Shown here one piece after another: positions 827 to 42,469 of a stretch of DNA of 42,469 nt; position 1 is the first letter of the stretch; the number at the start of each line of letters is the position of its first letter. The position numbers and the translations under genes were made by a program. The stretch is from positions 1 to 42,469 of IMG/VR virus record IMGVR_UViG_3300021197_000650. One strand, 5' to 3'. Origin of the DNA: a virus. The notes beneath the pieces were generated by a model, which was not told the DNA's origin, ran no database searches, and worked only from the letters and a program-made list of their open reading frames with translations.

Positions 827-840
827 AGCGTTTAAACATT

Positions 841-2691
841 ATGGGTTTACAAAGATTCAATTTTAAATCGGGTATTTATAAAGAAGGCACTGCGTACAGT
901 AATGAAGGCCGATTTTTTGATGCTAACTTTGTAAGATTTCGATCTGGTTTTCCCGAAAAAATGGGCGGCTGGGTAAAGAAATACACATCATCATTTATTG
1001 GAACGTGTCGAAAGATAAAGCAGTGGGTTTCATTAACAGGCACAAAGTACATTGCACTTGGAACTACAAAGAAAACATACATTATACAAGGTACATCATT
1101 TGTAGATGTTACACCTATACGTGCAACAACAAGCGCGGGTGATGCAACGTTTTCAGCATCAAATGGAAGCTCTACCGTTACTGTAAATGAAACAGGTCAT
1201 AATGCTGTTCAGGGTGATTTTGTTACTTTTAGTGGTGCCGCTTCATTAGGCGGAAATGTTACGGCAGAAGTGTTAAATCAAGAATATGAGATATTAGCAA
1301 TATCTAGCTCTAATGCATTTACCATAACGGCTAAAGACACATCGGGCGTGACTGTTACTGCAAATGCATCAGACTCAGGCAATGGTGGCAGTAGCACTGT
1401 AGCGGCATTTCAGATAAGCATAGGTGAAGATGTTGCAGTTCCCGGCGGTGGTTGGGGCGCTGGAACATGGAGTAGTGGCACATGGGGTACCGCTGTAGGT
1501 GATAGTGTTACTAATACCTTGCGGTTATGGTCACTAGACAACTTTGGTGAAGATCTTGTAATGAATCCGCGATTAGGTGGTATTTATTTGTGGGATGCTA
1601 CTAATCCAACAACAAGAGCTAAAGAGCTTTCTACTATAGTAGGAGCAATTGACCCTCCATCTGAGTCGCTTCAGATAGTTGTATCTACACAAGATCGCCA
1701 TGTTCTTGCTATTGGATGTAATCCTTTTGGTGAATCAAATATTGATTTAATGCAAATACGTTGGTGCGCTCAAGAAAATGTTCTTGATTGGAGGCCGTCA
1801 ACAAGAAATACCGCTGGTGATTTAAGGCTTTCAGTTGGATCAACTATTGTTGGTGCGCTTCGAGGTAGGCAAGAAACTGCTATATGGACAGATAATGCTT
1901 TGTATAGCCTTCAGTTTGTAGGCGCTCCATTTATATTTAGGGCAACGTTAATTACAGATGGCGTTAGTTTGATAAGCCCTAATGCAGCAATAGTTGCTAA
2001 TAATGTTATGTATTTTATGGATAGACATAATTTTTATGTTTATACCGGAGTGGCACAGGTACTGCCATGCACAGTTAGAGCATTTATTTTTGACAACCTT
2101 AATGATGTGCAGGGACAACAGGTTACTGCATTTGCTAATACCGGGTACAACGAGGTTGGTTGGTTTTATCCATCAACTGGATCAACGGTTTGCGACAAAA
2201 TGGTTGTTTACAATTATGTTGAGCAGGCTTGGAGTATTTCAGAGCTTGCAAGAGATTCATGGGACGATGCTGGGGCATCGGCAGATTTGCCAGTTGCGGT
2301 TAAAACATCTAATGATGCTGGATATATTTATGAACATGAAACTGGATTCAATGATGACGGGCAACCGTTGTCGGCGTTTATAGAAACTGCTGATTTTGAT
2401 GTAGCTGATGGTGATCGGTTTGCATTTGTTCGCAGATTGCTGCCAGATCTTTCGTTTGTAGGAACATCAACGAATCCAACATTGACATACTCATTGAAGT
2501 CACGGAATAACTCTGATGGTACATTAACAACACAGTCATCGGTTGATGTGTCAAATACGACAGACTTTGCTATGACAAATGTAAGAGCGAGGGCTAGGCA
2601 AATGCGAGTTCGCATCGAAAGCACTGACGAAGATAATGGATGGCGTTTAGGTGATGTAAGATTGGATGTTAGGGTGGATGGTCGAAGATGA
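841..2691 (+). CDS. Neck/tail protein, packaged-DNA-stabilisation (P22 gp10-like)
   Basis: The 616-residue product begins with a pattern (FKSGIYKEGTAY, then RFRSGFPEKMGGW) typical of podovirus neck or tail-hub proteins annotated as phage stabilisation proteins. The remainder is beta-rich, with many WxxG/GTW-like turns (about residues 198-220) and repeated strands that suggest a beta-propeller. A Ser/Thr/Val-rich insert at about 95-180 looks like an extra beta domain. P22 gp10 plugs the portal channel and carries the tail spikes; this protein probably closes the head after packaging in the same way. GTTTAAAC lies 11 bp before the start ATG. The product stop overlaps the next gene (ATGA). The specific gp10 assignment is from recalled pattern and gene order, not a search. 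Confidence 0.7.
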   Translation: MGLQRFNFKSGIYKEGTAYSNEGRFFDANFVRFRSGFPEKMGGWVKKYTSSFIGTCRKIKQWVSLTGTKYIALGTTKKTYIIQGTSFVDVTPIRATTSAGDATFSASNGSSTVTVNETGHNAVQGDFVTFSGAASLGGNVTAEVLNQEYEILAISSSNAFTITAKDTSGVTVTANASDSGNGGSSTVAAFQISIGEDVAVPGGGWGAGTWSSGTWGTAVGDSVTNTLRLWSLDNFGEDLVMNPRLGGIYLWDATNPTTRAKELSTIVGAIDPPSESLQIVVSTQDRHVLAIGCNPFGESNIDLMQIRWCAQENVLDWRPSTRNTAGDLRLSVGSTIVGALRGRQETAIWTDNALYSLQFVGAPFIFRATLITDGVSLISPNAAIVANNVMYFMDRHNFYVYTGVAQVLPCTVRAFIFDNLNDVQGQQVTAFANTGYNEVGWFYPSTGSTVCDKMVVYNYVEQAWSISELARDSWDDAGASADLPVAVKTSNDAGYIYEHETGFNDDGQPLSAFIETADFDVADGDRFAFVRRLLPDLSFVGTSTNPTLTYSLKSRNNSDGTLTTQSSVDVSNTTDFAMTNVRARARQMRVRIESTDEDNGWRLGDVRLDVRVDGRR

Positions 2692-2864
2692 GCACAACAT
2701 CTAGTGGGGCAGAATTCAGGCAACCTTTGGAGTTACCTCCGCAAGAGTATTCCGAAGAGTATTTTCAGAGGTTGATAAGCCAGATCAGGACAATATTGGG
2801 CTTAGTGCCGTCGAGGAATGAGGTAGAGAGCGAAGCGTCTAACATGACTTGGTTCATGTCGTAA
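2688..2864 (+). CDS. Small hypothetical protein (58 aa)
   Basis: This short frame opens with an ATG that overlaps the stop of the neck gene (ATGA) and closes with a TAA that overlaps the next start (TAATG), so it is coupled on both sides. The product is acidic, starts MSTTSSGAEFRQPLELPPQE, and has a helical section with QEYSEEYFQRLISQ-type heptads, then a tail ending NMTWFMS. Its position between a neck protein and a small beta protein suggests a virion or assembly part. Nothing in it points to an enzyme. The evidence is overlap geometry and absence of any other gene in the gap. Confidence 0.75.
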   Translation: MSTTSSGAEFRQPLELPPQEYSEEYFQRLISQIRTILGLVPSRNEVESEASNMTWFMS

Positions 2865-3196
2865 TGTCTTCTATCTATCAAAACGTCGTTACAACTCTGA
2901 CAGGGACAAGCATTACTGATGTGTTCGAGTGCCCACAGGGATCAACGGCAATACTGAAGACTGTAAGCGCGTTGAATACTGATGGATCAAGTGCGGCAAC
3001 ACTTACGGTTCATGTGTTTGATAGTAGTGCAGATGCGACATTTGAGTTTGAAACAGGGTCAATAGCCGCCGCAACCCGAAAGGGATACCTAAAAGACGGC
3101 GAAGTGATTGTTTTGGAAAGCAAAGACAAGCTCCGCATGACAGCAGGAACAGCCAATTACTTTGATATATTTGTGTCGTTACTTGAGATAACATAA
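2864..3196 (+). CDS. Small beta-rich virion protein
   Basis: The 110-residue product runs as alternating short strands (for example TLTVHVFDSSADATFEFETG and VIVLESKDKLRMTAG), like small head-decoration or tail-appendage proteins. The start chosen is the ATG at 2864, which overlaps the previous stop; an upstream in-frame TTG at 2849 has no such support. It ends TAACG, and GTTTAAAC begins two bases later at 3198. I do not recognise a named family with confidence. The fold guess rests on strand pattern only. Confidence 0.75.
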   Translation: MSSIYQNVVTTLTGTSITDVFECPQGSTAILKTVSALNTDGSSAATLTVHVFDSSADATFEFETGSIAAATRKGYLKDGEVIVLESKDKLRMTAGTANYFDIFVSLLEIT

Positions 3197-3219
3197 CGTT
3201 TAAACGCGAAGAGGTTCGT

Positions 3220-4972: not shown

Positions 4973-5350
4973 ATGATTAAACCATCTGACGCTATGGATC
5001 GGCCATTTGGCGGCATGTTGAGAAAATTCCAAGAAGGAGGCCCGATGACGGTCGATTCCTCTATTTTTGAGGGATTGGTGCCCGGAGTTGGCGGCGGTAT
5101 GGATGATGTCGTACCGGCAATCGTAGAGGGTGTAGAGCCTGTTTTGTTATCCAGAGATGAGTATGTGATACCTGCCGATGTCGTTGGGCATATCGGAGAT
5201 GGGAGCACCTCAAGGGGTGGCGAGCTACTTGATGAAATGGTTAACAACATTCGTATGCAAAAGACCCAAACGACAGAGCAGCCAGCAGAGTTAGATGAGA
5301 CTCCAGAAGAAATAATGTCGTTTCTAAGGACTCCACAAAAGGTCGTTTAA
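4973..5350 (+). CDS. Conserved virion-module protein
   Basis: The 125-residue product carries phrases seen repeatedly in marine phage structural modules: FGGMLRKFQEGGPM near the start, then VPAIVEGVEPVLLSRDEYVIPADVV at about 44-68 and GDGSTSRGGELLDEM. The combination of an EYVIPADVV strand and a GDGS loop recalls short domains embedded in tail proteins. The tail is acidic and polar. It begins right after the ejection-type protein and ends in a TAA that is part of GTTTAAAC (5345-5352). Function is unknown; a tail-assembly partner of the preceding protein is inferred from tight linkage. Confidence 0.7.
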   Translation: MIKPSDAMDRPFGGMLRKFQEGGPMTVDSSIFEGLVPGVGGGMDDVVPAIVEGVEPVLLSRDEYVIPADVVGHIGDGSTSRGGELLDEMVNNIRMQKTQTTEQPAELDETPEEIMSFLRTPQKVV

Positions 5351-5352
5351 AC

Positions 5353-5865
5353 ATGGCATTTGACATCGAGCTTGTAGAGAAAGCCGAGGTATTGCAAATC
5401 TGGCCCGAAATAGAGCATCTAGCTGAGAACTTACAGAAAAGAAGTCAGGGTCGATTTTGGACAGCAGACATCTTTAACCAATTGGTCGAGCTACCTTATT
5501 TCGTTTGGGTGGTTAGAGAAGAGGGAAACATCATTGGGTTTTTTATTTGCGGAATAAATAACTACCCAAGAAAGACATACTTGGACTTGAACACGCTAAG
5601 TGGGCTTAGGCTCAAAGAGTGGTCTGGGCAGGCGCTTGAGGTTGTTGAAGACCTTGGTAGAAGGCTTGGCGTAGATGGCATGGAAACAAGCACTGCGCCG
5701 GGATTAGAAAAAGCGTGGCGCAAAGTTGGATTTGAAAAAGAGTTTATAACGATGACTAAATCGTTTAAACAAGAAGAGCAGGATGTAGAGCCGATAGCAG
5801 TAAAAGACGAATTGCTTGAAGTAGATTCTGAAGAGCTTCTGAAGGAGGTCGCAAATGGGCGGTAG
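5353..5865 (+). CDS. GNAT-family N-acetyltransferase-like protein
   Basis: The 170-residue product has a GNAT-like layout: N-terminal helices (about 10-45), a strand pair around FVWVVREEGNIIGFFICG (about 48-66), a further strand near YLDLNTLSG, a helix with LEVVEDLGRRLGVDGMETS, and a motif resembling the GNAT C-terminal KAWRKVGFEKE strand-helix. About 30 acidic residues trail at the end. Proteins like this sit in the late module of many marine T7-like phages, where they may be virion components rather than general acetyltransferases. The start ATG abuts GTTTAAAC, with only a weak AAAGG upstream. The last 11 bases overlap the next gene. Confidence 0.7.
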   Translation: MAFDIELVEKAEVLQIWPEIEHLAENLQKRSQGRFWTADIFNQLVELPYFVWVVREEGNIIGFFICGINNYPRKTYLDLNTLSGLRLKEWSGQALEVVEDLGRRLGVDGMETSTAPGLEKAWRKVGFEKEFITMTKSFKQEEQDVEPIAVKDELLEVDSEELLKEVANGR

Positions 5866-7390: not shown

Positions 7391-7401
7391 GGCGTTTAAA
7401 C

Positions 7402-9639
7402 ATGGCAATGGAAGATCTACTTAGGATTGCAGAGCGCACTGAAGACTTGCCGGATCAAGCGTTAGCGCAGATTGCTGCGTCTGGTGCTGGTATCGAAAGC
7501 GTTATTGCTGCTAGTGAGATGAAGGCGCGAAACGATATTCGGCAGGACGCACAGATGATGCAGCAACAAGCGCAGCCCCCTGTAGTGGATCAGCTAATCA
7601 ATATGGCAATGCGCCAGCCTGCGCCTCCTATGGGCGCTCCTATGCCTCCACAAATGCAGCAGCCTATGGGCCAGCCAATGCCCCCACAGATGGGTATGCA
7701 GCAGCCTATGCCGCAACAAGCGCCTCCACAGATGGCACCTGATATGGCTCAGTTAGCCCAGCAGATGGGTGTACCTGCTATGAACACAGGCGGATTGATT
7801 CGTCGCTTCCAGACAGGGACACAAGGCACCATCGGTGGTGGTCAGCTTGATGCGTTTTTAGCGCAACAACAACTTGAGGAGGCTGGTTTTACAACGGAGC
7901 AGTTTGAGGGGTTAACGTCACAAGAAAGAATGCGCGTACTTCGGCAGATAGAAGACCGAAAAGCCTTAGAAGATGCTGCATCGTATGCCGCTGTTCCTGT
8001 TGCGGCGGCTACTGACGCAGCATATTTTATACCCAGAGCTATTGACGCAGGACTTTCGGAGTTAGCCAATACTAGGGTGGGCAAAGCATTAGGATTTTCT
8101 GACACATTTGATGAATCAAGTCGCCAGCCATTCGACGCATCTCAGCAACGATTGCAGGATTATAGGCAAACGTTGCGGCCTGTAACTTCGTTCGAATTCG
8201 AGAAAGCCCTAGGTGTTGGAGAAGCTCCTGATGTTTTAGCCAAAAGGCAGGGGCCAGCGCCATTCGGAAGAAGGCCGGAAGAGTTATATGAACGGCCTGC
8301 TGCGAGTACCGAAGGCTTGTTGTCCCGCACTCCTACCTTAAAGGAAATGCTAGGGCCAGAGAGATTTGCAGAATATCAGAGGCAAAACGCAAAGACCGCT
8401 GAAGTGCAAGCCAGCAAAGCAGATGGGAGTATTGGCCCAGAAGCGGCAACTACACAACAGATTGACAATCAAAGCCAGAATACACAAAGCGTGGGGGGCG
8501 TTCCTGTCACTGCTACTGAAGCTAACATATTGACATCAGACGCGGCATATATAGATCCACGTCAATTTGGCGTGGCAGGCGGGACAGGATCTGCAGGTCT
8601 TTACGCAAATCTAGTTGGCAACAATCCATATAGCAGCGTTGAAAGCAAAGTCTCTGGTAATTTAAATAATCAGATGCTTAAAGATCTTATCGAGCGAGAA
8701 GACAAATACAACGAAGCCATAGATACTGCTACGCAAAAAATGATAGACCTTGAAGCAGATTTGCCTACAAGGGAAAACATAAAAGATCGCATCAAGGAAC
8801 AAACCAAACTTGGCATGGCGAAAGCATTTTTTGACGCTGCCGGTTCTGGAAGCCCAGACTTCCTGAGCGCATTAGCTCAGGGCATGGGTGGTGCGGCTGG
8901 CATAATGAACAAGATGACAGGCGAGGAGCAAAAAGATCTGCATCAACATGCCTTGCAAATGTTCCAGCTTGAAAGAGAGAAAGCAAATACTGCGTTTAAA
9001 CGCCAAGATCAAACGCTCGCTAAGATACAAAATGCTCGCACTTATCAGCAGACAGTTTCACAAAATAACCGAGACTTGTCGTTACGTCTTGCGGAGATGC
9101 AGCAGAAGTATGGTCAAGATGCACGAAACTTTGCGTTTGAGGTCGCTAAGTTTAATGTAGAACAAGCCGCAGACTTTAAAGACGATCAAGCAGCAAACGC
9201 CAAAACCTTTGAAGAGTTAAGTCAAAATTATAGAAGTTTAGATTATGAGATGAAGGCGGATGCTGGCGAGCATGATTTGTCTTTGGCGGTGTCTGGGTTT
9301 GCAAATCTGAAAGTAGAAAGAGCGCAGAACCTTGCTAATAAAGGCGTTAAGGCTGTAGTCAAAGACATGGCAGATGTTGCACAACAACTTACGCCTGAAC
9401 AACAACAGCTATCCCCAGCAGAACAAGAGAGGATTATTGCTAGTCAGTTGATTGAGCAATACCGTGATGGCAACAATGTTGGCAAGCTAGATGTTTTACG
9501 AGTATTCGGTGACCAGCTTAGAGGGCTTTATGGGTCTGCTGGTACGCCACAATACGAACAAGTTCTGAAGTCGTTTGCGACAAAATACCCATATATCGAT
9601 ACTAATTATATTACCGACAATGCGACCCCAATCTACTAA
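7402..9639 (+). CDS. Large virion protein, Met/Pro/Gln-rich linker and coiled coil
   Basis: The 745-residue product has a short helical N-terminus (about 1-45), a disordered Met-Pro-Gln region (about 50-125, repeated PPQM and QQPM words), a GGLIRRFQTGTQG element resembling the FQEGGPM element of two neighbouring proteins, and a C-terminal half of long charged coiled-coil helices (about 420-660). It most resembles internal virion proteins that act with the giant protein that follows. The start ATG abuts GTTTAAAC (7394-7401), which lies between an AAGG ribosome site and the start. The stop and the next start overlap as TAATG. No catalytic residues were recognised. Confidence 0.7.
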   Translation: MAMEDLLRIAERTEDLPDQALAQIAASGAGIESVIAASEMKARNDIRQDAQMMQQQAQPPVVDQLINMAMRQPAPPMGAPMPPQMQQPMGQPMPPQMGMQQPMPQQAPPQMAPDMAQLAQQMGVPAMNTGGLIRRFQTGTQGTIGGGQLDAFLAQQQLEEAGFTTEQFEGLTSQERMRVLRQIEDRKALEDAASYAAVPVAAATDAAYFIPRAIDAGLSELANTRVGKALGFSDTFDESSRQPFDASQQRLQDYRQTLRPVTSFEFEKALGVGEAPDVLAKRQGPAPFGRRPEELYERPAASTEGLLSRTPTLKEMLGPERFAEYQRQNAKTAEVQASKADGSIGPEAATTQQIDNQSQNTQSVGGVPVTATEANILTSDAAYIDPRQFGVAGGTGSAGLYANLVGNNPYSSVESKVSGNLNNQMLKDLIEREDKYNEAIDTATQKMIDLEADLPTRENIKDRIKEQTKLGMAKAFFDAAGSGSPDFLSALAQGMGGAAGIMNKMTGEEQKDLHQHALQMFQLEREKANTAFKRQDQTLAKIQNARTYQQTVSQNNRDLSLRLAEMQQKYGQDARNFAFEVAKFNVEQAADFKDDQAANAKTFEELSQNYRSLDYEMKADAGEHDLSLAVSGFANLKVERAQNLANKGVKAVVKDMADVAQQLTPEQQQLSPAEQERIIASQLIEQYRDGNNVGKLDVLRVFGDQLRGLYGSAGTPQYEQVLKSFATKYPYIDTNYITDNATPIY

Positions 9640-12600
9640 TGCCTACGCAAGAAGAGTTTATACAGTCGTTGATTTCGAGGCTTCAGCCTGCTGATTCGGC
9701 TCCAGTAAATCAATCTCAGTTCACAGATCTGAGTCGCCTGCCAGCTTCTCAGTTCCCAATGCAACAGTTTGCGCCACGCGCTCCAGAGCAAGGTAGTTTA
9801 GCGTCTGGTTTTGCACAGCCAACGCCTGCGCCGGCACAGCCCCAGCCAGAACAAGATCAGGCGCAAAGAGATCTCAATCTGTTTGGCGGTTTTGACAAAG
9901 GCTTTCTTCCACCAGCGATTCCAATACAAGAAGACGAAAGCCAGAATTATTTTATGCAGGCTGGTAGAGGTTTTGGTCGAGGTGTAGCACAAGGCTCTAT
10001 CACTTTAGGACAAGGCTTGTTTGCTACCGCAGACGCGTTCACTAACGTTGTTGGATTTGAGGATTCGATAGATCCAGAGACTAGTGAGACTCTCAAGACT
10101 ATTAATGAGATGAGGGAGACTGTCGGCAATGAAGAGGGCATGGTCGGCAAGTTAGCTGAAGCCTTGGGCAGTATGGTGCCATTGCTAGTGCCGGGATTTG
10201 GTGCATCCGCTGCAACATCAAGAGCAGCGAGTCAGTTGGCGACAAGGGGCGCTGGATATGCCGAGGCAGCAAGGCGGGCTAATAATTTAGCCAAAGGTTT
10301 GCGAGCCACTACATTTGTAACTGCAAGCGGTATGGGTGCTGGCACAGCAAATCAAATGCTTGAGGAGTATATTGATGCTGGAAATGAGGTGGATATTGGC
10401 AAGCGCAACTTATCCACATTTGTTGGTTTAGGCATTGGTCTTACAGAACTACTGCCATTAGAGATTTTATTACGAGGGATACCTAGATCACTGGGTAAAA
10501 ACGTAACAAACAGATATGCAGTAAGGGCCGCACAGAACATTACCAATGCTGGCGCAGAGGGCGCTCAAGAAGCTGTCGCAGGAATCATGCAAGAGCTTGC
10601 AGCGCAAGGGCTTTATAACCCTGACCAGCCTATAGGTGATTCGGCGTTATCTGACTTTGGTTACGGCTCCGCAGCGGGATCAATTATAGATGGGTTGTTT
10701 GGCAAAAAGTTCCGCTTACCAAAAACCGAAAAGCAACTCCAAGCAGATCATCAAAACACAGAAGAGCTAGAGCCTCTTACAGAAGAATTTCTGAGAAGCG
10801 CACAACAAGCAGAACAAGATGTTGCGTTTTATGACGCTGACGGTAATAAGCAAGGCGGTCAGGTTGTAGGTTTCGGGGATGACTATGTAACGCTTTCTGT
10901 TGATGGCGATCTTATAGATTTGCCACGCAATCAGATGCCCGATCCAAACTCAGGCAATTCTTTTGCTTCTGATAGTGATTTGCTCACATCGCGCTTTGCC
11001 ATAGATGGCAAGCAATTAGGCGACATGACCAACGCAGAAGTGGTTAATAATAGGAACAAAGAGCTTTTACCCCCACTAATAAGAGCGCAGGTGGATTCGG
11101 GGGATATAAGTTTAAACGATGCGATAGAGCTTGCTAAGACTGACACCGACACTATTGAAACAGCCGCTACCCCGGATCGTATTTATCGAATCAAGGCGCT
11201 CACCAATGAGATTAATCGCAGAGACCCAGAGGCTAACGCATCAATTAGTGTAAAGGCAGCAGATCAACAAGCTAAAGTGGCTGCTGGGATTGAGATAGAC
11301 AGCGGAGAGTTTGGTGACAGTGTAGAAGAGCAGGTGCAGGCTAGAGTCCCTGACGCACTAAGTGGGACGGTTCTTGGCAGAACAGTTGGCGGCAAAGTAG
11401 ATGAAGCCGTTATAGGTCAGGCAGCACTAACCAAGTCGATGAAGGGCATCAGCAAGAAAGATAAGGCTGCTTATTACGCTCAAGTTGGCGCAAGCCCTGA
11501 TGCTGCTTTTGACACCCTTACAGACCAACAAAAGATTGAGTTATACGATTTAGCTGGCACCCACAAACAACGTAAAGCGGAAGAGAAGAAGGCGCAGGAA
11601 GAGCGAGAGGCTGAAGCTGCGACAGAGCAAGAGGTTCAAAGGCGATCTGAAGAATTAGCTAAAGCGCAACAAGAGTCAGTAATTGTGCCTTCGCCAGAAG
11701 CTCAAGCCGGTGCCGTAGCAGAAGAGATCGCAGAGACTATCGAGGAGGCTCCTGCACAGCCACAGGTTGTGGTGCCAGAGCCAGAGGCTGTAGTGCCTAC
11801 ACCCGAAACTATTGTCGAGGAGGCGCAGCCAGAAGAGTTAGATATAGCTACCCGTGCGCGTATGTCAGCCGAGCTATTCGGTGAGTTCAGTATCTCTGAC
11901 ATACAGAAAGATATTCGTGCTGGATATAACCCAACTGTTGAAGCGATAACCGATCTGGCGGCGAGCGGTCAGGTTGTATCAGTTGGAGATGGTCGGTATC
12001 GGTTCGTAACGCCTGAGCCAGAGGTTGTAGTAGAAGAAGCGCCTGCGCCCGTAGGCTTCCAATCTAAAACTGTCGAGGACTCTAAGCCCCGATACAGAAA
12101 TGCAACGCCTGTATTTAATTCTTTGCTTGATAAAGCCCTGTACATAGTAGGCAACCCTAAGAGCAAATCCAAAGCCGATGAACAGGTCATGGGTGAGCTT
12201 AGGTCGTTCTTGCAGCAAAAAGCCCCCGACTTGGAAGATGCAAACATCCGTAGGCTAGGGATGGCTGTACGAGATAATGTCAAGTATCAAGGCGAAATAG
12301 CTCGGAAAGCGGAACGATCAAGTTTCGAGGTGCAAGAGCAGGTATTGCCTGACGTTGACCTTTCCTCTCCAGAATTAATCGAATCAATATTAGATCGCTA
12401 TCAAAAGCCAGCGGCTGAGACCGAACCTGCTGCGCCTAAGCCCGTAAAGCCCACGCTGCCAAAGACAGAAGAAGTAGTTTTAACTAAGTCAGAAGAAGCT
12501 GACATACGAGATGAGATTGGCTCACAAACTGGTGGCGATGCAAAGGCGACCCAGATAGGAATGAGCGCATACAAAAAGCGGCGAAATCTCGGTGAAAGCC

Positions 12601-15600
12601 ATGAAGATGCGAAACAAAGTTTTTCTGCTGACCCAGAATACGCACAAGCACTTTTTGATATTGACTTTGCTCGTAGAGAGCAGGGGGCAGAGCAAAGCCA
12701 AGTCGCAGAGCTTGTAGGTGTTGCTGGATCAGAAACAGCTCCGGGCACTCCGGGTATGCTTGTTTCGCAAAAAGGCGAACCTATTGACTTCAATACGTTT
12801 CAGAGAATCAAGAAGGTTGTAAGTGATGTAGCCCCGTCTTCAAACCTTGTAGTCGCAAGCCAGCTTTATGGTCAGGTCGTGAACCGAGATGGTGACGTTA
12901 AGTATGTTATTAACGGCAATGAGGTTAGCTATGAAGAGGCGCTGGGCCTGCAAATGGGTAACATCGTCGGAGTATCTTTGGCTCCCGATAAACTGATTGA
13001 CCCAGAGAACAGAGCGTATCACGAAGCCACACACTTCTTATTCAATAATGGGTTCTTAACTGACCCAGAAATGAAGTCGTTGATTGCTAACATCCCTAGG
13101 ATGGAACAAATTGTCCTCGACCATCTGGGCCAGAAGCGATATGACGAAGCCATGTCGGGCAATGAGTTCCAGAACTTTAACGAGCTAATTGCGTATTCGT
13201 CGGCGCTTTATAACAGAGGCTTAGACGTTGATGGCAAGGTGCCAAAAGAGTTCAACCCTGCGCTACGCCGCATCTTCGCTAAAATTGCTAGACTGTTTAA
13301 ACAGCTTAGATCCAACTTTACTGGTGAATTTGTACCAATGGAGGTGGAGCAGGTCTTTGAGCAGATCCGTCAAGGTCGCACAGGCCGTAGAGCGCCAGAC
13401 CCACAGGCTACACAGCGCGTTAAACAGGCGATGCTTAAAGAAGATCCAACAGGTCTGAGCGCAGCGACACCTCTGTTTGTTATCAAGCAAGGCCCAGTTG
13501 CAGCTAGTTCATCCTTTGAAAACTTCAGAGGTGAAGTTCCTGCCAGACCAGCATTTAAGTCTGCTATGAAGACCAAGCTAGAAGGCATGGCGGGGCAGAA
13601 GAAGCTGCCTGATGCTTGGGGAAGGGTTGAAGGCAATCGGGTGGTAGGCGCGTTGTCAGGCGTTAAGGTAGAAGAGTGGAACGATTCAAACATAGAGGCG
13701 TTCCTTACCAGCTTGCCTCCAGATAAATCAGTAAGCGGTCAAGAGCTTCTGGATTATTTTAATGACATCGAGCAAGTGGTTGAGATAGTTGTATATGGCT
13801 CTCCGCTTGGGCCTAAGAGCGACGTAGACTCAGAGATCAAATACCGTTCCGCTATACAAGAGGATCGTAATAACCAAGGCTACATAGCGACAGCTAACGA
13901 TGCGATGACTTCTTTGCGAACGGGAAAAGGCAAAGACGTTGTAAACGCAATGCAAGTAGCAAATCTAACTCGTAAAGAGGTTCCAAATAAAGACGATATA
14001 AACCCCGCATATCCACCTGATGTTGTCGATGCGCTAGAGAGCTACGCCGAAGCCCTTCAAAAACAAGATGATTCATTTGACGATTTGCCTGACCCGATCC
14101 AAGAAAAGCAAAGACTCATTACCGCGCTACAAGAATCGTTTAAACGAGATGGGACTTCATTGGATAAAAAGGCTTTCGGGCTTGGCTTAGTAGAAGCAAG
14201 CGTTAAGCCGGGATTTCAGTTTACTAGGGAGGCGGGTGAAATGCTTCCTGCTGGATTCAGTATGGACGATGGTGATTTGCCATTGCAGAGAGGAGCCGGG
14301 ACGGGTAGCGCATACGGAACCGAGGTGGCCGATATACCTAACTTTTATCTCAAATGGACGACGATGGGCGGCAGGGCGATTTCGTTTGACTCTCCACGCG
14401 GTAAGATGAATCTACAACAAGACTATGGATATAGAGAAATAATCATTGCTGCGCCAAGTATGGCAGGTGATGGCACTTATCACAGTCACTTTCCTGACAT
14501 TCGCAATCCAATCATGCATATGCGTCTTGCCGACATTATTTTAGAGAACGGCGAGTCGGTATTGGTTATCGAGGAAATACAGTCTGATGTTCATCAGGGT
14601 GCCGCAGAACTAATGAAGCAAATGGCTGCAAACAAGCTGTTTGAGGATGGCGCAATACCTGATAGTAGATTTAAGTTTTTGAATAGAGAGCAAAAGAATT
14701 TAGTTAGAGAGGCTGCGTCTCAATTTAAAGATGATGTGTACGGCAAGGTATTTCCTAACCTGCCTCTCAAGAATGAAAATCAGCGGATAGCTTTTGCCAT
14801 GCAGCAAATTACACGCATGGCAATAAACGGCGGATATGACCATATCGCTGTAAGCAATAGCGAGTTACAAGTGGAGCGTTATCGAAATGAATACAAGGCT
14901 GCTATTGATGGCTTGGTGATGACGCAAGTTGCAGATGTCGGCGTGGATTCTGACGCTTTTGGTGCTCTTGCTGGGCAGGAAAAAGTTTTTGCGGTTAATA
15001 CAGAGCAAGGAACATTCGAGGTATCAGAGACAGATGTTCTTATGGAGCTAGAGTCTTTAATTGAGCAGGGCATATTAGCCCCTGCGTTTCCAGATCCATT
15101 TACTGGCTCTTTCCCTACACAAGAACAGCTTACCGGCGAGGTCGCACCAGAAGAAATAATACTAGACGAAGAGGCTATAGATGAGGCTAAGGGAGAACGA
15201 GAAAGGCGAGCAAGGAATCTCGCAAGTTCAGTTCTTACTTCCGCTCAACAAAAAAGAAACCTATCAGGATTCAGGGCTGCTTCTGCAAGGGCGGCAGATG
15301 CTGCATTACAAGAGACAGTCGAAGTAGACGAGACAGATGCGATTAAGCTGGCGTTTATGAAGGCGCTGCTCAAAGCCAACCCAGATATGCCTTCGTCATG
15401 GCTTGCTACCTACACAACACCTGTAGTTGGTTTAAACAATCAAGGCCAAACGGTTAGAGGTAATTTTCAAAGACAGACAATCGAGCTAGGTAATCAGGGT
15501 GTTACGAGATCTGGCAATCCAAGGCTGGATGATTGGTTGGGCGAAGATGTTGCTCTGTTAGTCCGCAATGACCTACAAAATCCAGAATCTGTATCAGACC

Positions 15601-20103: not shown

Positions 20104-20311
20104 ACGATACGCTAAGGGCGGAAAGGTCAAGAAGAAAAAGTCCAAGTCTCGCGTCAACGAGGCGGGTAACTACACCAAACCTGAGATGCGTAAGCGTCAG
20201 TTCAATAGGATCAAAGCTGGCAGCAAGGGCGGGAAAAGCGGTCAGTGGTCAGCGCGTAAAGCTCAGATGTTAGCGAAGGCTTACAAAGATGCAGGCGGTG
20301 GGTACAAGTAA
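20096..20311 (+). CDS. Small very basic protein
   Basis: The 71-residue product is rich in Lys, Arg and Gly (YAKGGKVKKKKSKSRVNEAG, then TKPEMRKRQFNRIKAG and GKSGQWSARKAQMLAKAYK). Versions of this sequence are common in marine phages as far as I recall. The charge suggests nucleic-acid contact, perhaps DNA neutralisation in the capsid or RNA/ribosome binding. The second and third codons lie within GTTTAAAC at 20098. It overlaps the endolysin end by 8 bases and shares its stop with the next start. Confidence 0.8.
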   Translation: MFKRYAKGGKVKKKKSKSRVNEAGNYTKPEMRKRQFNRIKAGSKGGKSGQWSARKAQMLAKAYKDAGGGYK

Positions 20312-31470: not shown

Positions 31471-31489
31471 CTCCTTGTTGCGTTTAAAC
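31471..31489 (-). promoter_or_regulatory. Composite GTTTAAACGCAACAAGGAG leader
   Basis: Read leftward this is GTTTAAACGCAACAAGGAG, five bases before the ATG at 31465. The palindrome and the CGCAAC leader share a base (G of the palindrome's rim). Confidence 0.7.
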
Positions 31490-32065: not shown

Positions 32066-32254
32066 CTAATCCTCCAACTCAACTAAGTGCTCGAATGATT
32101 GTTTAAACACTTCAACCAAGTGATCGTAATCACCTGACATCATGTTTGAGATTATCGGATCAGGACTCTCGCCCGTCTGCTTGCATATGTTTCGGGCTAT
32201 GCCCATCAACGCAAACGCATTTCCATCAGGGCCGCTTAGGTCTATTCGTATCAT
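32066..32254 (-). CDS. Conserved small phage protein
   Basis: The 62-residue product begins MIRIDLSGPDGNAFALMGIA, a conserved start in many short phage proteins, then a helical, acidic remainder. The start ATG at 32254 is 8 bases behind GGAG of the CGCAACAAGGAG leader; a GTG one codon earlier is less well spaced. It is the first gene after a strong promoter at 32284-32312. GTTTAAAC at 32101 encodes Phe-Lys. Confidence 0.75.
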   Translation of the reverse strand: MIRIDLSGPDGNAFALMGIARNICKQTGESPDPIISNMMSGDYDHLVEVFKQSFEHLVELED

Positions 32255-32262
32255 CACTCTAT

Positions 32263-32981: not shown

Positions 32982-33003
32982 CCTCCTATCGTTGCGTTTA
33001 AAC
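32982..33003 (-). promoter_or_regulatory. Composite GTTTAAACGCAAC leader with GGAGG
   Basis: Leftward reading gives GTTTAAACGCAACGAT and then AGGAGG, 8 bases before the TTG at 32973. It is one of four such composites and decides the start of the small gene. Confidence 0.6.
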
Positions 33004-33025: not shown

Positions 33026-33850
33026 TTACGCTGCCTCGGTATTGGCAGCGCATTCGTTCCAATGTCCGAGCACCGTATCCAGTGCCTCGTCCATTGTGTA
33101 GTAGCCCTTGTCGCCGTACATCGGGGGGATGTACATGGCATCGGCAGGCAGGTCATCGAAGTCCTTCACTCTGCCATAGCCGCTCACATATCCTGAGTAG
33201 GTGAACTCCATGATGCGGAAGCAAACTCGACGCAACATGGATGGATGTGCCAGAGCGAAGGCGATGCGGTCAAGATCAAGCACTTCGTCAGCACGTTTGA
33301 CCGTGATGAAGATGCGCTGCTCGTCGTGATCGTAGCCCTCGGTGTCAGCTCGCTGGCAGGCAATCAACTCCACACGCTGACCAGACTGCTCGATCTGGTC
33401 GATCAGGGCGACAATGGCAGAGCCTTTGCGGATCATCGCGCTGGCCTCAGTGCTCGATGTGGCACCGATGTCAGCGTAGATCTTGACGATGGGTATAGCG
33501 TTGCGATTGCTCGTATCGTCCATCCAGACCATGTGATTCGGGACACCAGCGCAGTAGCTTGGGATGCAAGCTCGCTGGCCGGCTACGCCGTACTCCCAAT
33601 CAGGTCGTTTAAACGATGCTTGCTTTGCCTTAGCAAACTCAACGCCGGAGCCGATAGCATCGCGCCCTTCGTCCCAGCCGCTGATCGCAGTCTGCACTGC
33701 ACCACCAAAGGTGCGAGTGCCGTAGAACTCCTTGGCTTCGCGGCCCTCTCTTTTGGTGCTGGCTAGATCCTGCCATCCCTCGTTGGGTTCGCGGTGCATG
33801 TCAGCCATGCATTCGTCCCAGCTTACTTTGTACTCGATGACGTTAGTCAT
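33026..33850 (-). CDS. AAA+-linked conserved protein (DUF7192-like)
   Basis: The 274-residue product has an N-terminal EFYGTRTFGGAVQTAISGWD pattern (about 40-60), then HMVWMDDTSN, a strand-rich core (IPIVKIYADIGATSS, RKGSAIVALIDQIEQSGQRV, ELIACQ) and a C-terminal section with LAHPSMLRRVCFR. I place it as DUF7192 from recall. Its core resembles the alpha/beta rhythm of VWA domains but the metal-site DxSxS is absent. It starts in a TAATG overlap with the AAA+ gene, as VWA partners of MoxR-type ATPases often do, so it is probably that ATPase's partner. Confidence 0.72.
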   Translation of the reverse strand: MTNVIEYKVSWDECMADMHREPNEGWQDLASTKREGREAKEFYGTRTFGGAVQTAISGWDEGRDAIGSGVEFAKAKQASFKRPDWEYGVAGQRACIPSYCAGVPNHMVWMDDTSNRNAIPIVKIYADIGATSSTEASAMIRKGSAIVALIDQIEQSGQRVELIACQRADTEGYDHDEQRIFITVKRADEVLDLDRIAFALAHPSMLRRVCFRIMEFTYSGYVSGYGRVKDFDDLPADAMYIPPMYGDKGYYTMDEALDTVLGHWNECAANTEAA

Positions 33851-34959
33851 TACGCCGCCTCCTGTAGTGCGTCGATGATAGAGAAGTCAACACCGTCCAA
33901 GACCTTGGTCTTGTCTGTGTCGCTCCAGCCCTTGTCGAAGATCAAGGCGCTCATTACAGAGCGAAATGGCATACCAGCAGCCAGTGCCTTAGCGCCCTTG
34001 ATAGAAGCCCTTGGGCTTACCACAAAGCGCATCTTGTGATGCTCAACCTGTGCCCTGATCGCTTGCACCAGATCCACCCAAGCGTCATTGCCAGCGATGC
34101 TGCGTTCTAGCGCCTCGTCGTATCCCATTGGGATATAAGCGAAGCGGTCAAGTGTCGCGGCATCCATTGGATTGCGTCCGACATACTGAGCCGATGCGCC
34201 GTGACCGAAGGTGTTGGCTGATGCGATGATTCGGAAATCAGCGTGACGCTCGACCAGACCGCAGGGGAAACTAGCGAAGTCATTCGCTAGAGCAGCGTTG
34301 AGAGACAGCAAAGCGTTGGGATTGCTTGCGTCCATCTCGTCCATCAAGACGAGACCGCCATGTTTAAACGCCTTGTAGAACTCGGTCTCAACGTAGTTGC
34401 CGTTGGCATCGTTGTAGCCTAGGAACTCGAAAGCCTGACCGATAGCGCCGTAGCAGTAGAACGGGGTGTCCAGCGCCTCGGCTATCTGCTTTGCGATGCT
34501 GGTCTTACCAGAACCAGCAGGGCCGACGATATACGCTGGCTCACCCATCGCTACCCAATCGAGCACAGAGTGAAACACTTCGTGAACTCGACCTTTGATC
34601 TGGATCGGATCGCCATCGTTGATGGTGATCTGGTGGGTGATGGTCTGCGTTGATGCGACCAGCGCCTTGAGATCCTCGATGTCGCCACGGAGATCTTCGA
34701 TTACCTTGGCTGACATAGACTCGATGTCACCCTGTGACAGCGTAGCAGCCCCAGCATTGGGGCCATGCAGCCATAGGCTGACCTTCGCCTCTTCGGGCAT
34801 CGTGGCTGACATACGGTACATGGTAGCCAGCAGCGCCAGCTTAGAGCGATGCGCTGGGGTCACAATGTCGCCCTCTGACCGTAGGTCATTGAGAACCTTG
34901 CAGATTTTGTTAAGACGTTGGTGATGCGAAGCATCGAGTGTGGTAGTATGATCGAACAT
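33850..34959 (-). CDS. AAA+ ATPase, MoxR/CobS-like
   Basis: The 369-residue product has Walker A GPAGSGKTS (Lys152, Thr153), a CYGAIGQAFEFLG stretch, Walker B LVLMDEMD (Asp207, Glu208), sensor-1 IIASANTFG and an arginine-containing RFAYIPM, all typical of MoxR/CobS-type AAA+ proteins that remodel partners or insert metals. The first 135 residues are a helical adaptor domain. Flanking DUF7192-like and SprT-like genes suggest a three-part machine. It is translated from a composite GTTTAAACGCAACAAGGAG leader. The in-gene GTTTAAAC at 34362 encodes Phe-Lys. Confidence 0.88.
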   Translation of the reverse strand: MFDHTTTLDASHHQRLNKICKVLNDLRSEGDIVTPAHRSKLALLATMYRMSATMPEEAKVSLWLHGPNAGAATLSQGDIESMSAKVIEDLRGDIEDLKALVASTQTITHQITINDGDPIQIKGRVHEVFHSVLDWVAMGEPAYIVGPAGSGKTSIAKQIAEALDTPFYCYGAIGQAFEFLGYNDANGNYVETEFYKAFKHGGLVLMDEMDASNPNALLSLNAALANDFASFPCGLVERHADFRIIASANTFGHGASAQYVGRNPMDAATLDRFAYIPMGYDEALERSIAGNDAWVDLVQAIRAQVEHHKMRFVVSPRASIKGAKALAAGMPFRSVMSALIFDKGWSDTDKTKVLDGVDFSIIDALQEAA

Positions 34960-34967: not shown

Positions 34968-34986
34968 CTCCTTGTTGCGTTTAAAC
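34968..34986 (-). promoter_or_regulatory. Composite GTTTAAACGCAACAAGGAG leader
   Basis: The leftward sequence GTTTAAACGCAACAAGGAG ends 8 bases before the ATG of the AAA+ gene at 34959. It is identical over 19 bases to the copy at 31471-31489. Confidence 0.72.
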
Positions 34987-35001: not shown

Positions 35002-35610
35002 CTAGTCAGCGACTAGCGTTCCGGCGAGGTGACATGCTGGGCATGTTGACTCGGGGGTAATCTTCGATTGCCACTTGGCTGACACTCTGGCGGTGAAGCC
35101 ACAGTCACTGCATTGCAGTTTGAGCATACGAGTGCCTTGCTTCTTACGAAGCGATGGATCAATTTTGGCATGGGGGTAAACCCCCAAGATGTCAGCGATC
35201 TCGGCCAGTGTGTCCAGCAAAGCTGGTGATGCGGGGGTTTGTGTCATAGGGCCGGTGAAGCCTACGGCTTTGGCGATTCGGGCAAACTCACCTCGGTGAC
35301 CACATTCGATACCGGCCCAAACATGAATGAATTCATGTAACAGGATACGAAGCACCTCGACAGGCTCATCTATGATGGGGTTGATGCAGACTTCCATAGT
35401 TCCATCGGAACTGACACTTGCATCGAATGCCTGACCTAGCACGACCTTGCCGGTCTTCGACCCACGATACCCGATAGGGAAGCCGCAGGTGACTCGATAG
35501 CGGCGGGATTGCCAAGCGTCGGGTGAGATACCAGCATTGGCAAAGACCATCTCAAACAGTAAAACAAGCGCAGCTTGTAACCATTCTTCTCTCGTTGTGT
35601 ATGACTGCAT
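35002..35610 (-). CDS. SprT-like zinc metalloprotease
   Basis: The 202-residue product has LLHEFIH with His92, Glu93 and His96 and a third candidate ligand His105 (CGHRGEF), the SprT/Spartan-type HEXXH core. The C-terminal 45 residues hold a zinc ribbon: LQCSDCG then CPACHLAG. SprT-type proteases clear DNA-protein crosslinks; here it might act on DNA-bound host proteins or on a target presented by the adjacent AAA+ ATPase. The start at 35610 follows AAAGGAG of the CGCAACAAAGGAG leader (35618-35630); an upstream start at 35688 would read through a hairpin and is rejected. Confidence 0.85.
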   Translation of the reverse strand: MQSYTTREEWLQAALVLLFEMVFANAGISPDAWQSRRYRVTCGFPIGYRGSKTGKVVLGQAFDASVSSDGTMEVCINPIIDEPVEVLRILLHEFIHVWAGIECGHRGEFARIAKAVGFTGPMTQTPASPALLDTLAEIADILGVYPHAKIDPSLRKKQGTRMLKLQCSDCGFTARVSAKWQSKITPESTCPACHLAGTLVAD

Positions 35611-35688: not shown

Positions 35689-35900
35689 TGTTGATGCGAC
35701 ATGCTTCGCATGTTTAAACCTTCCAGATCTCTAGCAGACACTTCGTGATCTACGATTGCGCCGAACTTCCAGTTCTTGAGTTCGATGAATCCAGATTCAT
35801 CTCTGATGAACGCTGCTCCCGTCGTGAACCATTGTCCGTCGAACTGAGTGGTAGGCCACTCAACATCACTGTCTACTCGTATATCCATACGTCCTTGCAT
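35685..35900 (-). CDS. Small hypothetical protein
   Basis: The 71-residue product is strand-rich and acidic (MQGRMDIRVDSDVEWPTTQF, then GQWFTTGAAFIRDESGFIEL and KNWKFGAIVDHEVSARDLEG). The ATG at 35900 follows AAAGGAGAAACGCA. It is the first clear gene after the leader of the long leftward operon. GTTTAAAC at 35712 encodes Leu-Asn near its end. Function is unknown. Confidence 0.68.
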   Translation of the reverse strand: MQGRMDIRVDSDVEWPTTQFDGQWFTTGAAFIRDESGFIELKNWKFGAIVDHEVSARDLEGLNMRSMSHQQ

Positions 35901-36298: not shown

Positions 36299-36328
36299 AT
36301 TAGGCCCAGCTTTCGTTTAAACTGTCAA
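36299..36328 (-). promoter_or_regulatory. Leftward promoter of the accessory operon
   Basis: On the minus strand TTGACA (36323-36328) is followed by GTTTAAAC directly (36315-36322) and, after 18 bases in all, CCTAAT (36299-36304). The -35 is perfect, the -10 moderate. GTTTAAAC fills the spacer, so a protein bound there would control the promoter. Confidence 0.55.
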
Positions 36329-36397
36329 CTAGTTTTTTCCAACTGGGTTTTTTACCCTAAAGGGTAAGTCGGGGAGTTTAAACGGGTTGTAGGCGTT

Positions 36398-36814
36398 ATG
36401 AGCAAGCAGGTAAGCGTGAAAGAGCGCCTATTCGCTAGGTATGTGGCCGAAGGCCGTACACAGGCAGAGAGTGCGCGTATGGCTGGCTATGCCAGTAATC
36501 CAGACAAAAAGGGAAGTGAGTTGGTTAAAAAAGCCGAGGTCGTAGACCTAATCAATCAGCGGGGAGCGGAATTGGCAGAGGATAGGGCTGTTTCCCTACG
36601 GGAACACCTCGATACACTGGCTGCTTTGCGTGATGACGCTAGAGATGCTGGGCAATATAGCTCTGCTATACAGGCTGAGCACCATAGAGGGAAAGCCTCT
36701 AGGCTTTATGTGGAGCAGCAAGCAGTGGTGCGGGCTGATGCCGACTCACCTTCGGTGATCTTGGAGCGTTTAAACGGATTGCTGTCTCGTGATCCCGTCG
36801 CAACGCAGGACTAG
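36398..36814 (+). CDS. terS: Terminase small subunit
   Basis: The 138-residue product starts with an HTH-like region typical of terminase small subunits (VKERLFARYVAEGRTQAESA then RMAGYASNPDKKGSELVKKA), followed by helices that could form the oligomer ring. It should recognise the packaging site and bring in the large subunit encoded 230 bp downstream. GTTTAAAC sites at 36376 (15 bp before the start) and 36768 flank it. Only a weak TAGG ribosome site precedes the ATG. Confidence 0.82.
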   Translation: MSKQVSVKERLFARYVAEGRTQAESARMAGYASNPDKKGSELVKKAEVVDLINQRGAELAEDRAVSLREHLDTLAALRDDARDAGQYSSAIQAEHHRGKASRLYVEQQAVVRADADSPSVILERLNGLLSRDPVATQD

Positions 36815-38573: not shown

Positions 38574-38606
38574 TGCGTTTAAACTCCGCGCAACCGGGAG
38601 CATTGT

Positions 38607-41171: not shown

Positions 41172-41377
41172 TGTCAGGTTTTGTTGATCCAAGATTTGTT
41201 GACTTATTATTATCGCGTTTAAACGAGCTAGAAAGTCATCATAAAGAAAAGCTGATTGCAGGGTCAGTTGAAAAGATAGAAGAGTATAAGCTCTATCGAG
41301 GACAGCTCGAAGGGATACAAACAGCAATACGCGAAATACGAGAGGTAGCAGAGCGCGTTTTTGTTGATGAGAATTAG
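41171..41377 (+). CDS. Small helical protein after portal
   Basis: The 68-residue product is helical and charged: MSGFVDPRFVDLLLSRLNEL, then HHKEKLIAGSVEKIEEYKLY and RGQLEGIQTAIREIREVAER. Short proteins with the GQLxGIxxAxxxIxE pattern follow the portal in other marine podoviruses as I recall; the role is unknown, perhaps head assembly. The start is ATG at 41171, which overlaps the portal stop; TTG one codon earlier is possible. GTTTAAAC at 41217 encodes Leu-Asn. Confidence 0.75.
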   Translation: MSGFVDPRFVDLLLSRLNELESHHKEKLIAGSVEKIEEYKLYRGQLEGIQTAIREIREVAERVFVDEN

Positions 41378-41392
41378 CATCATCAGGATGCA

Positions 41393-41821
41393 ATGGGTTC
41401 TACACTTCCCAATAAGTGTTGCAGTGAGAAAAAAATGGCAGAAGTAGACTTAAAGGCCATTGGTACGAAAGAAGAGACTGCTGATAAAGCTAGTCAACTC
41501 CCAGTGCCAACGGGCTATCATATACTGATCGGTTTACCGGAAATCGACGAAAAGACAGAAGGCGGGATCATAAAGGCGCAGGCAACAATATCTATTGAGG
41601 AAACCGCCTCGGTAGTTGGGTTTGTTCTTGCGATGGGGCCAGACTGTTATCAAGACAAAAAACGATTCCCTAATGGGCCTTGGTGTAGTGAAGGCGACTT
41701 CATAATAATGCGAGCCTATAGCGGTACGCGCATTAGCATTCATGGCAAAGAGTTCCGTATTATTAATGACGATACGGTAGAAGCTGTAGTTGATGATCCA
41801 AGGGGGATAAGTCGTGTCTGA
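41393..41821 (+). CDS. GroES-like co-chaperonin
   Basis: The 142-residue product matches phage-encoded Cpn10/GroES: GYHILIGLPEIDEKTEGGII, an ETASVVGFVLAMGPDCYQDK section with the mobile-loop position preceding it, WCSEGDFIIMRAYSGTRISI and ND-DTVEAVVDDP. Phage GroES variants pair with host GroEL and often enlarge its cage to fold capsid protein. It is placed between portal and scaffold, consistent with head assembly. The first ATG follows CAGGATGCA; ATG at 41435 is an alternative giving 128 residues. Confidence 0.88.
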   Translation: MGSTLPNKCCSEKKMAEVDLKAIGTKEETADKASQLPVPTGYHILIGLPEIDEKTEGGIIKAQATISIEETASVVGFVLAMGPDCYQDKKRFPNGPWCSEGDFIIMRAYSGTRISIHGKEFRIINDDTVEAVVDDPRGISRV

Positions 41822-42469
41822 GGTAAACTTTCCAGAGCCAAATGAAAATATTGAAAGTGGTTTTGATTCTGATGAAATAGAAGTTGTTGAGGTAGATGAT
41901 ACTCCTGAAGTAGATCGTCGGCCTGTACGCAATGATGTTGAACCATTTAATATCGACGAAGAGATTGACATTGCAGATGATCGTGTTAAAAAACGTTTAA
42001 ACAGACTCAAATACGAGTATCATCAGCAGCGTAGAGAGAAAGAAGCTGCACAAAGATTACGCGATGAGGCTGTTCAGTTTGCACAAAATACCCAAGGAGA
42101 AGTTCAAAGACTTCAAGGGTTGGTAGGTCAAAGTGAACAAGCGTTATTGCAAAGTGTACAGACACGCACCGAAGCAGAGTTGGCTTCGTTAAGGCAGGAG
42201 TACACAAAAGCCCACGAAGAGGGCGATACGCAGAAAATGGTAGAGGCGCAAGAACAGCTTGCGCGGATACAGGCAGACAGGGCTTATATAGATAATTATA
42301 AGTCTCAAATGCAAACGAATCAGTCAGAGCAACAGGCTCAGACAAATGTGCAGGTGGAACAGCCACCGCAACAAGAGCAGCTAGATCCGCAATTGCAGAA
42401 CTGGTTGTCTCGTAATAGTTGGTTTGGAGCGCCCGGAAACGAAGCTCTAACTGGCTTTACTTATGGGCT
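41814..42469 (+). CDS. Scaffold / head-assembly protein (partial, cut at window end)
   Basis: From GTG at 41814, behind GGGGGATAAGTC, a frame stays open to the window edge (218 codons). The N-terminus is very acidic (EIEVVEVDDTPEVD), followed by a long coiled coil (RRREKEAAQRL-type heptads, about 65-160), a Gln-rich section, and a WLSRNSWFGAPGNEALTGFT motif found at the C-terminal part of podovirus scaffolds as I recall. It should shape the procapsid and leave before packaging. The capsid gene expected next is not in the window. GTTTAAAC at 41995 encodes Leu-Asn. Confidence 0.82.
   Translation, partial: MSEVNFPEPNENIESGFDSDEIEVVEVDDTPEVDRRPVRNDVEPFNIDEEIDIADDRVKKRLNRLKYEYHQQRREKEAAQRLRDEAVQFAQNTQGEVQRLQGLVGQSEQALLQSVQTRTEAELASLRQEYTKAHEEGDTQKMVEAQEQLARIQADRAYIDNYKSQMQTNQSEQQAQTNVQVEQPPQQEQLDPQLQNWLSRNSWFGAPGNEALTGFTYG

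Follow-up and report, generated by a model that had tools for sequence, protein, structure and literature searches.

A palindromic octamer dispersed through phage genomes and a phage SprT-like zinc-ribbon protein as its probable reader

Why should one 8-bp palindrome recur 38 times in a marine phage contig of 42,469 bp? The question is raised by IMG/VR record IMGVR_UViG_3300021197_000650, analysed over its whole length (hereafter the window). Exact copies of the octamer GTTTAAAC are found from position 830 to position 42002, against 0.74, 0.55 and 0.56 expected under Markov models of order 0, 1 and 2, a 50- to 70-fold excess. The first-pass annotation of this DNA had counted 38 copies, about fifty-fold over chance, and the recount agrees (38 vs ~0.6 expected). 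The octamer ranks first among all 8-mers of the window and no other palindrome comes near it, the palindromic 8-mers next in rank having 3 copies. One-mismatch variants are near expectation, the top one being GTGTAAAC/GTTTACAC with 4 copies vs 0.9 expected; the word is nearly all-or-none in the window. We propose, on sequence grounds, that a phage-encoded SprT-like protein recognises GTTTAAAC: it would read the word through a zinc ribbon, repress its own gene and occupy the phage genome. We assign this reading a probability of about 0.72.

The sites are not placed as chance would place them. Ten to 12 of the 38 are intergenic, depending on gene calls, where non-coding DNA makes up 4-8% of the window; the 26-28 sites inside coding DNA use only the two frames that avoid an in-frame TAA, 14 sites each. 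Their flanks are symmetrically biased, with a pyrimidine before the G, a purine after the C and a purine at -5. Spacing is more even than random (coefficient of variation 0.56 vs 0.96), and none of 20,000 random sets was equally even. Eleven of the 38 sites lie within 40 bp upstream of a start codon, compared to 2.2 expected, a surplus that may mean no more than that gaps are cheapest there.

Comparison with relatives indicates that the sites are under purifying selection. In G021, a distant relative of 42.5 kb with 74% nucleotide identity to the window around the sites, 20 of the 23 alignable window sites (87%) are intact vs 14% of neighbouring 8-mers, and the flank bias matches that of the window. 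Further relatives gave the same picture. Gene content of the window and G021 differs in places; the site totals are still 38 and 36. Between Dinoroseobacter phage R26L and phage R5C, 7 of 13 sites are intact vs 22% of controls, and between R26L and Pan1 5 of 10 vs 11%. Every record fetched by the window terminase carries at least one GTTTAAAC, and all the close relatives checked contain it. The window terminase and portal are related to those of pelagiphages HTVC027P and HTVC023P; the motif is absent from the named relatives HTVC027P, HTVC023P, 023Pt_psg01 and DSL-LC04.

How far does the octamer extend beyond this group? IMG/VR was scanned for three GTTTAAAC at 240-270 bp spacing, which gave 93 stretches, most without nucleotide kinship to the window. 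These hold ~1-4 copies per kb, with GTTTAAAC as their top 8-mer. One large set, with 37-57 copies in ~40 kb, is referred to here as freshwater actinophages because of a WhiB-like gene (read from the translation) and a Streptomyces-phage-like terminase. Named isolates carry the word as well: R26L, at 63% GC, has 20 copies vs 0.02 expected, a 1000-fold excess, and each TTTAAA of its genome sits within a GTTTAAAC. The first-pass statement that no such sequence is known in a phage was too narrow, since environmental phages often have the word and some named isolates do too. Near-even spacing was observed in the window, G021, R26L, Pan1 and Yang.

Applied to 257 Gb of bacterial genomes, the same kind of search for three sites gave 46 stretches, mainly local arrays, with no evident genome-wide enrichment. 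Many have a tandem period near 65-70 bp and come from cyanobacteria, and these bacterial arrays are probably CRISPR (clustered regularly interspaced short palindromic repeats) arrays. In arrays L131, L138, L139, L142, L161 and L167 (cyanobacteria, Thiorhodospira) the repeat unit includes GTTTAAAC. A search of bacterial genomes with the terminase, for a host or provirus, found no match. A literature search, mostly outside subscription journals, found no report of a phage signal with the sequence GTTTAAAC or GTTTACAC, and the R26L genome paper mentions neither octamer nor SprT. A genome-wide DNA signal linked to a phage SprT-type zinc-ribbon protein, its likely reader, is to this extent previously undescribed.

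To look for the reader, all open reading frames (ORFs) of 21 motif-rich genomes from many lineages were clustered into families. The SprT-like protein (35002-35688, minus strand in the window) was the only family common to 10 motif-rich lineages, among them those of the named isolates R26L, Alexa and PT1; other families reached at most 7. On this basis the motif was expected in named phages that possess the gene, and the prediction held. Besides R26L, enrichment was found in Acinetobacter phage Alexa (8 copies, all as CGTTTAAACG), Salmonella phage PT1 (6), R5C (17), Pan1 (16), Persinger (4) and Mano (4), with 0.02-0.14 expected for the last four. Yang, an Arthrobacter phage, and Percival, a Microbacterium phage, also have the SprT gene; their GTTTAAAC counts are 0 and 2, and they conform through the sister word GTTTACAC/GTGTAAAC (20 copies vs 0.08 expected and 14 vs 0.03), which in Yang lies on both strands as GTTTACAC (14 and 6). 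Twelve named phages without a SprT-like gene hold 9 GTTTAAAC in all vs ~12 expected, and marine Roseobacter and SAR116 phages lacking the gene have no motif.

A near-unbiased test used IMG/VR loci fetched by SprT-family alignment alone, with window kin removed (n = 59). These SprT-ribbon loci contain 236 GTTTAAAC vs 5.3 expected and 163 GTTTACAC or its reverse complement vs 10.0, and 55 of the 59 are enriched. The motif thus tracks one phage gene over Dinoroseobacter, Acinetobacter, Salmonella/E. coli and actinobacterial hosts, which favours a phage-encoded reader; a gene identical to the PT1 SprT-like gene is present in an E. coli phage, HeidiAbel_Bas97. The first-pass annotation had supposed a phage or host protein reading the site: the sites do behave as protein-read, and the evidence now points to the phage and not to the host. 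Of the functions it had listed (timing, compaction, packaging, recombination protection, self-marking) any may apply, and a probable autoregulatory operator is now added to them.

The window protein matches phrog_6361 (E = 5e-36) and falls under the Pfam cut-off for PF10263, for which its best relative scores E = 3e-5; relatives are annotated 'SprT-like protease', and INPHARED has 163 records of SprT-like phages. It carries, as HEFIH, the HExxH active-site motif of the SprT-like family, with proteolysis on DNA as a putative activity. Its AlphaFold model (mean predicted local distance difference test score, pLDDT, 75.8) has a metalloprotease-like core, and fold matches in PDB are weak and of metallopeptidase type, including CapP and PprI.

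Losses of either part of the protein separate the ribbon from the protease. By alignment, CN2 (a Bordetella phage) and L433-L436 have kept the protease core and lost the ribbon cysteines; they have 0 GTTTAAAC and one GTTTACAC in total, in CN2. The ribbon-bearing relatives L440 and L441, from the same scan, have 18 and 17 GTTTAAAC. Conversely, HExxH is gone from the freshwater actinophages (G041-G049) and also from G050 and G053, all of which retain the ribbon cysteines together with many sites. Because HExxH is lost there, proteolysis is not needed for site maintenance in these phages, and because they keep dense sites it is not the whole story. The proteins of G041-G049 (L287-L301, L267-L270) look like a protease family turned DNA-binding protein. 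Phage CN2 (L334-L336) shows strong enrichment of other 8-mers, TACTTCTT/AAGAAGTA and ATCTATCT.

Site specificity also follows the ribbon. The 18 loci with ribbon subtype GWTARVSALQxxRLH (L382-L404, L407, L415; 256 kb) contain GTTTAAAT 81 times vs 1.4 expected, GTTTAACC 92 vs 3.1, GTTTACAC 75 vs 3.0 and GTTTAAAC 42 vs 1.1. The coexistence of GTTTAAAT, GTTTAACC, CGTTTAAC and GTTTACAC in this subtype is suggestive of a relaxed half-site code. On the SprT tree, motif classes are clustered, with 9 label changes vs a shuffled mean of 17.

Is the putative reader gene itself marked? All 6 low-copy phages tested have a site between -100 and +22 relative to the annotated SprT start, compared to 0.17 expected in total. 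The site begins at -24 to -27 in Alexa, PT1, Persinger and Mano; a GTTTACAC site lies 45 bp before the start in Yang and at the start in Percival. In PT1 (TATAAT), Mano (TACACT) and Yang (TACACT) the site follows a -10-like hexamer, judged by eye, by 0-11 bp. R26L and R5C have theirs 293 and 389 bp upstream of SprT, ahead of a two-gene set. G021, G050 and G057 have no site at the SprT start, and the start-region site is therefore common but not universal. A candidate autoregulatory operator at the SprT-like gene is probable from these positions.

The sequences show that the word is over-represented and its sites held by purifying selection, that it co-occurs with the ribbon and covaries with the ribbon subtype, and that a copy stands in the reader gene's leader. 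That the protein binds the word, does so as a dimer and represses, and what the scattered copies are for, we infer. The reading domain would be the C-terminal zinc ribbon, of pattern KKQxTR-x-x-K-x-x-C..C-G ... CP. The SprT-like protein would probably sit on the palindrome as a dimer, with base contacts extending up to 9-10 bp from the centre. Bound just upstream of its own gene it would repress itself; at the remaining sites, coding and non-coding, it would occupy the entire phage genome. Spacing is specific to the lineage, ~0.3 kb in the freshwater actinophages, 1 kb in the window, 2 kb in Arthrobacter phages and 4 kb in Nanhaivirus. Such occupancy would most likely serve to organise, mark or quiet phage DNA in the cell. 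We rank genome-wide occupancy first among the possible functions, a transcription roadblock second and protease loading third.

A wider proposal is more tentative, and we hold its chances to be somewhat below even. Phages may possess a widespread genome-address system, in which a SprT-derived zinc-ribbon protein reads octamers set near-regularly over the entire genome, allowing the phage to have its own DNA recognised and organised as a unit during infection. The leader octamer would set the level of the protein, and the word would be set by the ribbon subtype (GTTTAAAC, GTTTACAC or the relaxed relative). The octamer would be rebuilt in replaced genes and drift with the ribbon, giving orthogonal pairs.

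Several points weigh against reading by the SprT-like ribbon. Some ribbon-bearing loci have little motif (L417 and L439 0, L438 2, L431 3, a weak count), and sites in the freshwater actinophages are uneven and crowded in the early half. The C-terminal ribbon is modelled at moderate confidence only (pLDDT 60-77), and a sequence profile search gave no solved relative and, for the ribbon, no solved DNA-binding match. No SprT gene was detected in G051 in spite of its 18 sites. Truncation probably removed it: related genomes place the gene ~690 bp from the terminase, and the G051 contig, with 224 bp remaining on that side, ends where the gene would sit. A short or divergent second conserved protein that always accompanies the SprT-like one may have gone undetected. 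Finally, the lineages share ancestry and the counts are not fully independent.

Could the sites instead be roadblocks, at which a reader bound within transcription units halts host RNA polymerase and shuts transcription? The precedent is found in cluster A mycobacteriophages (L5, TipsytheTRex), where one phage protein, the repressor, binds more than 20 short stoperators and also promoters (PMC9283540). Such a role would suit the scattering of the sites, the one at the start of the reader gene and the surplus within 40 bp upstream of starts (11 of 38 vs 2.2), and the window resembles these genomes in having many copies of one short site. Known stoperators, however, are 13 bp long, asymmetric, oriented with transcription and placed in short intergenic spaces (PMC9283540), whereas the window word is an 8-bp palindrome, as in most lineages, mostly intragenic and near-even in several of them, which is unexpected for operators. 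The asymmetric variant GTTTACAC likewise differs in its use of both strands in Yang. The stoperator reader is a helix-turn-helix (HTH) immunity repressor of temperate phages; here the candidate belongs to a zinc-ribbon metalloprotease family, and no lysogeny genes are evident in the window. No integrase was found among the gene calls and family searches of the window, an incomplete contig; Alexa carries an annotated integrase. We regard roadblocks as unlikely, and rejected the stoperator reading itself, the symmetry and position of the sites being unfitting.

Somewhat less probable still is that GTTTAAAC marks loading sites of a working SprT-type protease, targeted by its ribbon, which clears host or crosslinked proteins off phage DNA. 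The window and most relatives retain an unbroken HExxH, and regular spacing would cover the full genome. Mammalian SPRTN, a DNA-dependent protease of DNA-protein crosslinks, offers a precedent (PMC5127644). The phages that lost HExxH (G041-G049, G050, G053) and yet keep ribbon and dense sites speak against it. The phage protein resembles SprT/Spartan (SPRTN) in joining a HExxH fold to a C-terminal zinc-binding module, SPRTN also being DNA-linked, and differs in that several phage lineages lost HExxH and kept the ribbon. We know of no SprT-family protein reported to read a specific DNA word.

The task might also be divided, a separate repressor (XRE/Cro or another HTH, for example window 21643-21915 or 28858-29283) reading the site with the SprT-like protein as partner protease, as in IrrE-DdrO, ImmA-ImmR and CapP-CapH. 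HTH dimers often bind palindromes, the XRE protein of the window has sequence matches to DdrO, ClgR and C proteins, and the weak fold matches to CapP and PprI would fit a protease-repressor pair. The SprT-like protein shares with IrrE/PprI-DdrO, ImmA-ImmR and CapP-CapH a zinc metalloprotease in DNA-linked regulation, at weak fold similarity; in those systems a separate XRE repressor reads the DNA, and here no XRE family is common across lineages. A separate XRE reader is disfavoured: of 17 motif-bearing records tested, only 3 reach the HTH_3 cut-off (the window, G021 and PT1; R26L and Pan1 are sub-threshold), and no other HTH family is common across lineages either. Moreover, the lineages with the densest sites lose the protease motif yet keep the ribbon, and site specificity tracks ribbon subtype. 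We consider this arrangement quite improbable.

A host factor as reader is more improbable again. Dispersed short words of like length are read genome-wide in cells, as Chi, KOPS and DNA uptake sequences are, and HIP1 of cyanobacteria (GCGATCGC) is likewise an exact palindrome of 8 bp, in vast excess and scattered through coding DNA. In these last respects GTTTAAAC is like HIP1. HIP1, however, is cellular and tied to DNA methyltransferases, whereas GTTTAAAC is phage-borne and Pfam and PHROG searches of the window proteins found no such enzyme. Unlike GTTTAAAC, the words Chi, KOPS and uptake sequences are asymmetric, oriented and cellular, with a host machine as reader. Motif phages infect hosts with no close kinship (Dinoroseobacter, Acinetobacter, Salmonella; actinobacteria for the variant), the marine Roseobacter and SAR116 phages mentioned above lack gene and motif alike, and the bacterial scan returned mainly local arrays. 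Codon or composition bias, or an assembly artefact, can be set aside for all practical purposes in spite of most copies being in coding DNA: as the first-pass annotation had held of codon choice, it does not account for the use of two frames and the intergenic copies, and it is refuted by conservation at the DNA level (87% vs 14% of neighbours) and by the excess in GC-rich R26L.

Table 1. Features of the window. Site rows are exact, strand-neutral matches to GTTTAAAC, in window positions.
Feature	Position	Strand	Remark
Site 1	830..837	.	leader of 841-2691
Site 2	3198..3205	.	leader of 3220-4971
Site 3	5345..5352	.	adjoins ATG at 5353
Site 4	5763..5770	.	altered in G021
Site 5	7394..7401	.	adjoins ATG at 7402
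Site 6	8994..9001	.	
Site 7	11110..11117	.	altered in G012
Site 8	13295..13302	.	
Site 9	14138..14145	.	
Site 10	15430..15437	.	
Site 11	15670..15677	.	
Site 12	17333..17340	.	
Site 13	19107..19114	.	
Site 14	20098..20105	.	start codon of 20096-20311
Site 15	21223..21230	.	intergenic
Site 16	21951..21958	.	
Site 17	22904..22911	.	
Site 18	24363..24370	.	
Site 19	25534..25541	.	
Site 20	26890..26897	.	
Site 21	27711..27718	.	
Site 22	28291..28298	.	altered in G021
Site 23	29068..29075	.	
Site 24	29508..29515	.	
Site 25	30455..30462	.	
Site 26	31482..31489	.	leader of 31058-31465
Site 27	32101..32108	.	
Site 28	32996..33003	.	intergenic; altered in G021
Site 29	33607..33614	.	
Site 30	34362..34369	.	
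Site 31	34979..34986	.	between SprT-like gene and 33850-34959
Site 32	35712..35719	.	24 bp from GTG start of SprT-like gene; candidate autoregulatory operator
Site 33	36315..36322	.	61 bp ahead of site 34
Site 34	36376..36383	.	leader of small terminase gene
Site 35	36768..36775	.	
Site 36	38577..38584	.	leader of portal gene
Site 37	41217..41224	.	intergenic
Site 38	41995..42002	.	intergenic
SprT-like zinc metalloprotease with C-terminal zinc ribbon, 228 aa	35002..35688	-	proposed reader of GTTTAAAC
HEFIH (HExxH) protease motif, residues 118-122	35323..35337	-	in SprT-like protein
Zinc ribbon KKQGTRMLKLQC-SDCG...CPAC, residues 183-228	35005..35142	-	proposed DNA-reading domain

The site pair 36315/36376 upstream of the small terminase gene has a counterpart as a 60-bp pair in G021 (9491/9551) and G012 (7536/7596). 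Four minus-strand genes of early type (31058-31465, 33850-34959, 32066-32257, 32564-32767) have a common leader, CGCAACAAGGAG, directly before the start, its first base sometimes overlapped by GTTTAAAC; it looks like a shared ribosome-binding leader and resembles start-associated sequences. Three tiny lysine-rich proteins are encoded in a row at 20096-20894 on the plus strand (phrog_17747, phrog_14910, phrog_7595), mostly 94-99% conserved in window kin; the phrog_7595 protein is also found in freshwater actinophages and many marine phages. As a reader this small basic protein (20562-20894) was rejected, its relatives (P12053L, CRP-9, HMO-2011, KBS-S-2A, Vibrio D274, S-CBS2, C72C1 and ct3Oc712 were checked) having 0-2 sites. 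So was the XRE regulator 21643-21915, kept in window kin and not across lineages. Self-marking by restriction and methylation (GTTTAAAC being a PmeI site) was also set aside: Pfam and PHROG searches, run on part of the window ORFs, gave no DNA methyltransferase. Elsewhere, a single plus-strand ORF of 3103 aa (9639-18950), 22% of the contig, presumably encodes a giant virion protein, and a GroES/Cpn10-like co-chaperonin gene (41393-41821, plus strand) adjoins the portal gene. The contig falls short of a full genome: it has no recognised capsid gene, and relatives such as L001 extend beyond its right end.

If the octamer is read by the SprT-like ribbon, unrelated lytic and temperate phages of distant hosts would share a cis-acting, genome-wide DNA code, with a reader drawn from a family known only as proteases. 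A function would be gained for a common, unexplained gene of phages, one that records label 'SprT-like protease', 'transcription elongation protein' or hypothetical, and phage contigs with no other common sequence would become linked. The ribbon subtypes and their words would constitute natural orthogonal protein-site pairs. The GTTTAAAC sites, as ordinary PmeI sites, can be cut or blocked, and the question of how phages manage their DNA as one unit within the infected cell would become approachable.

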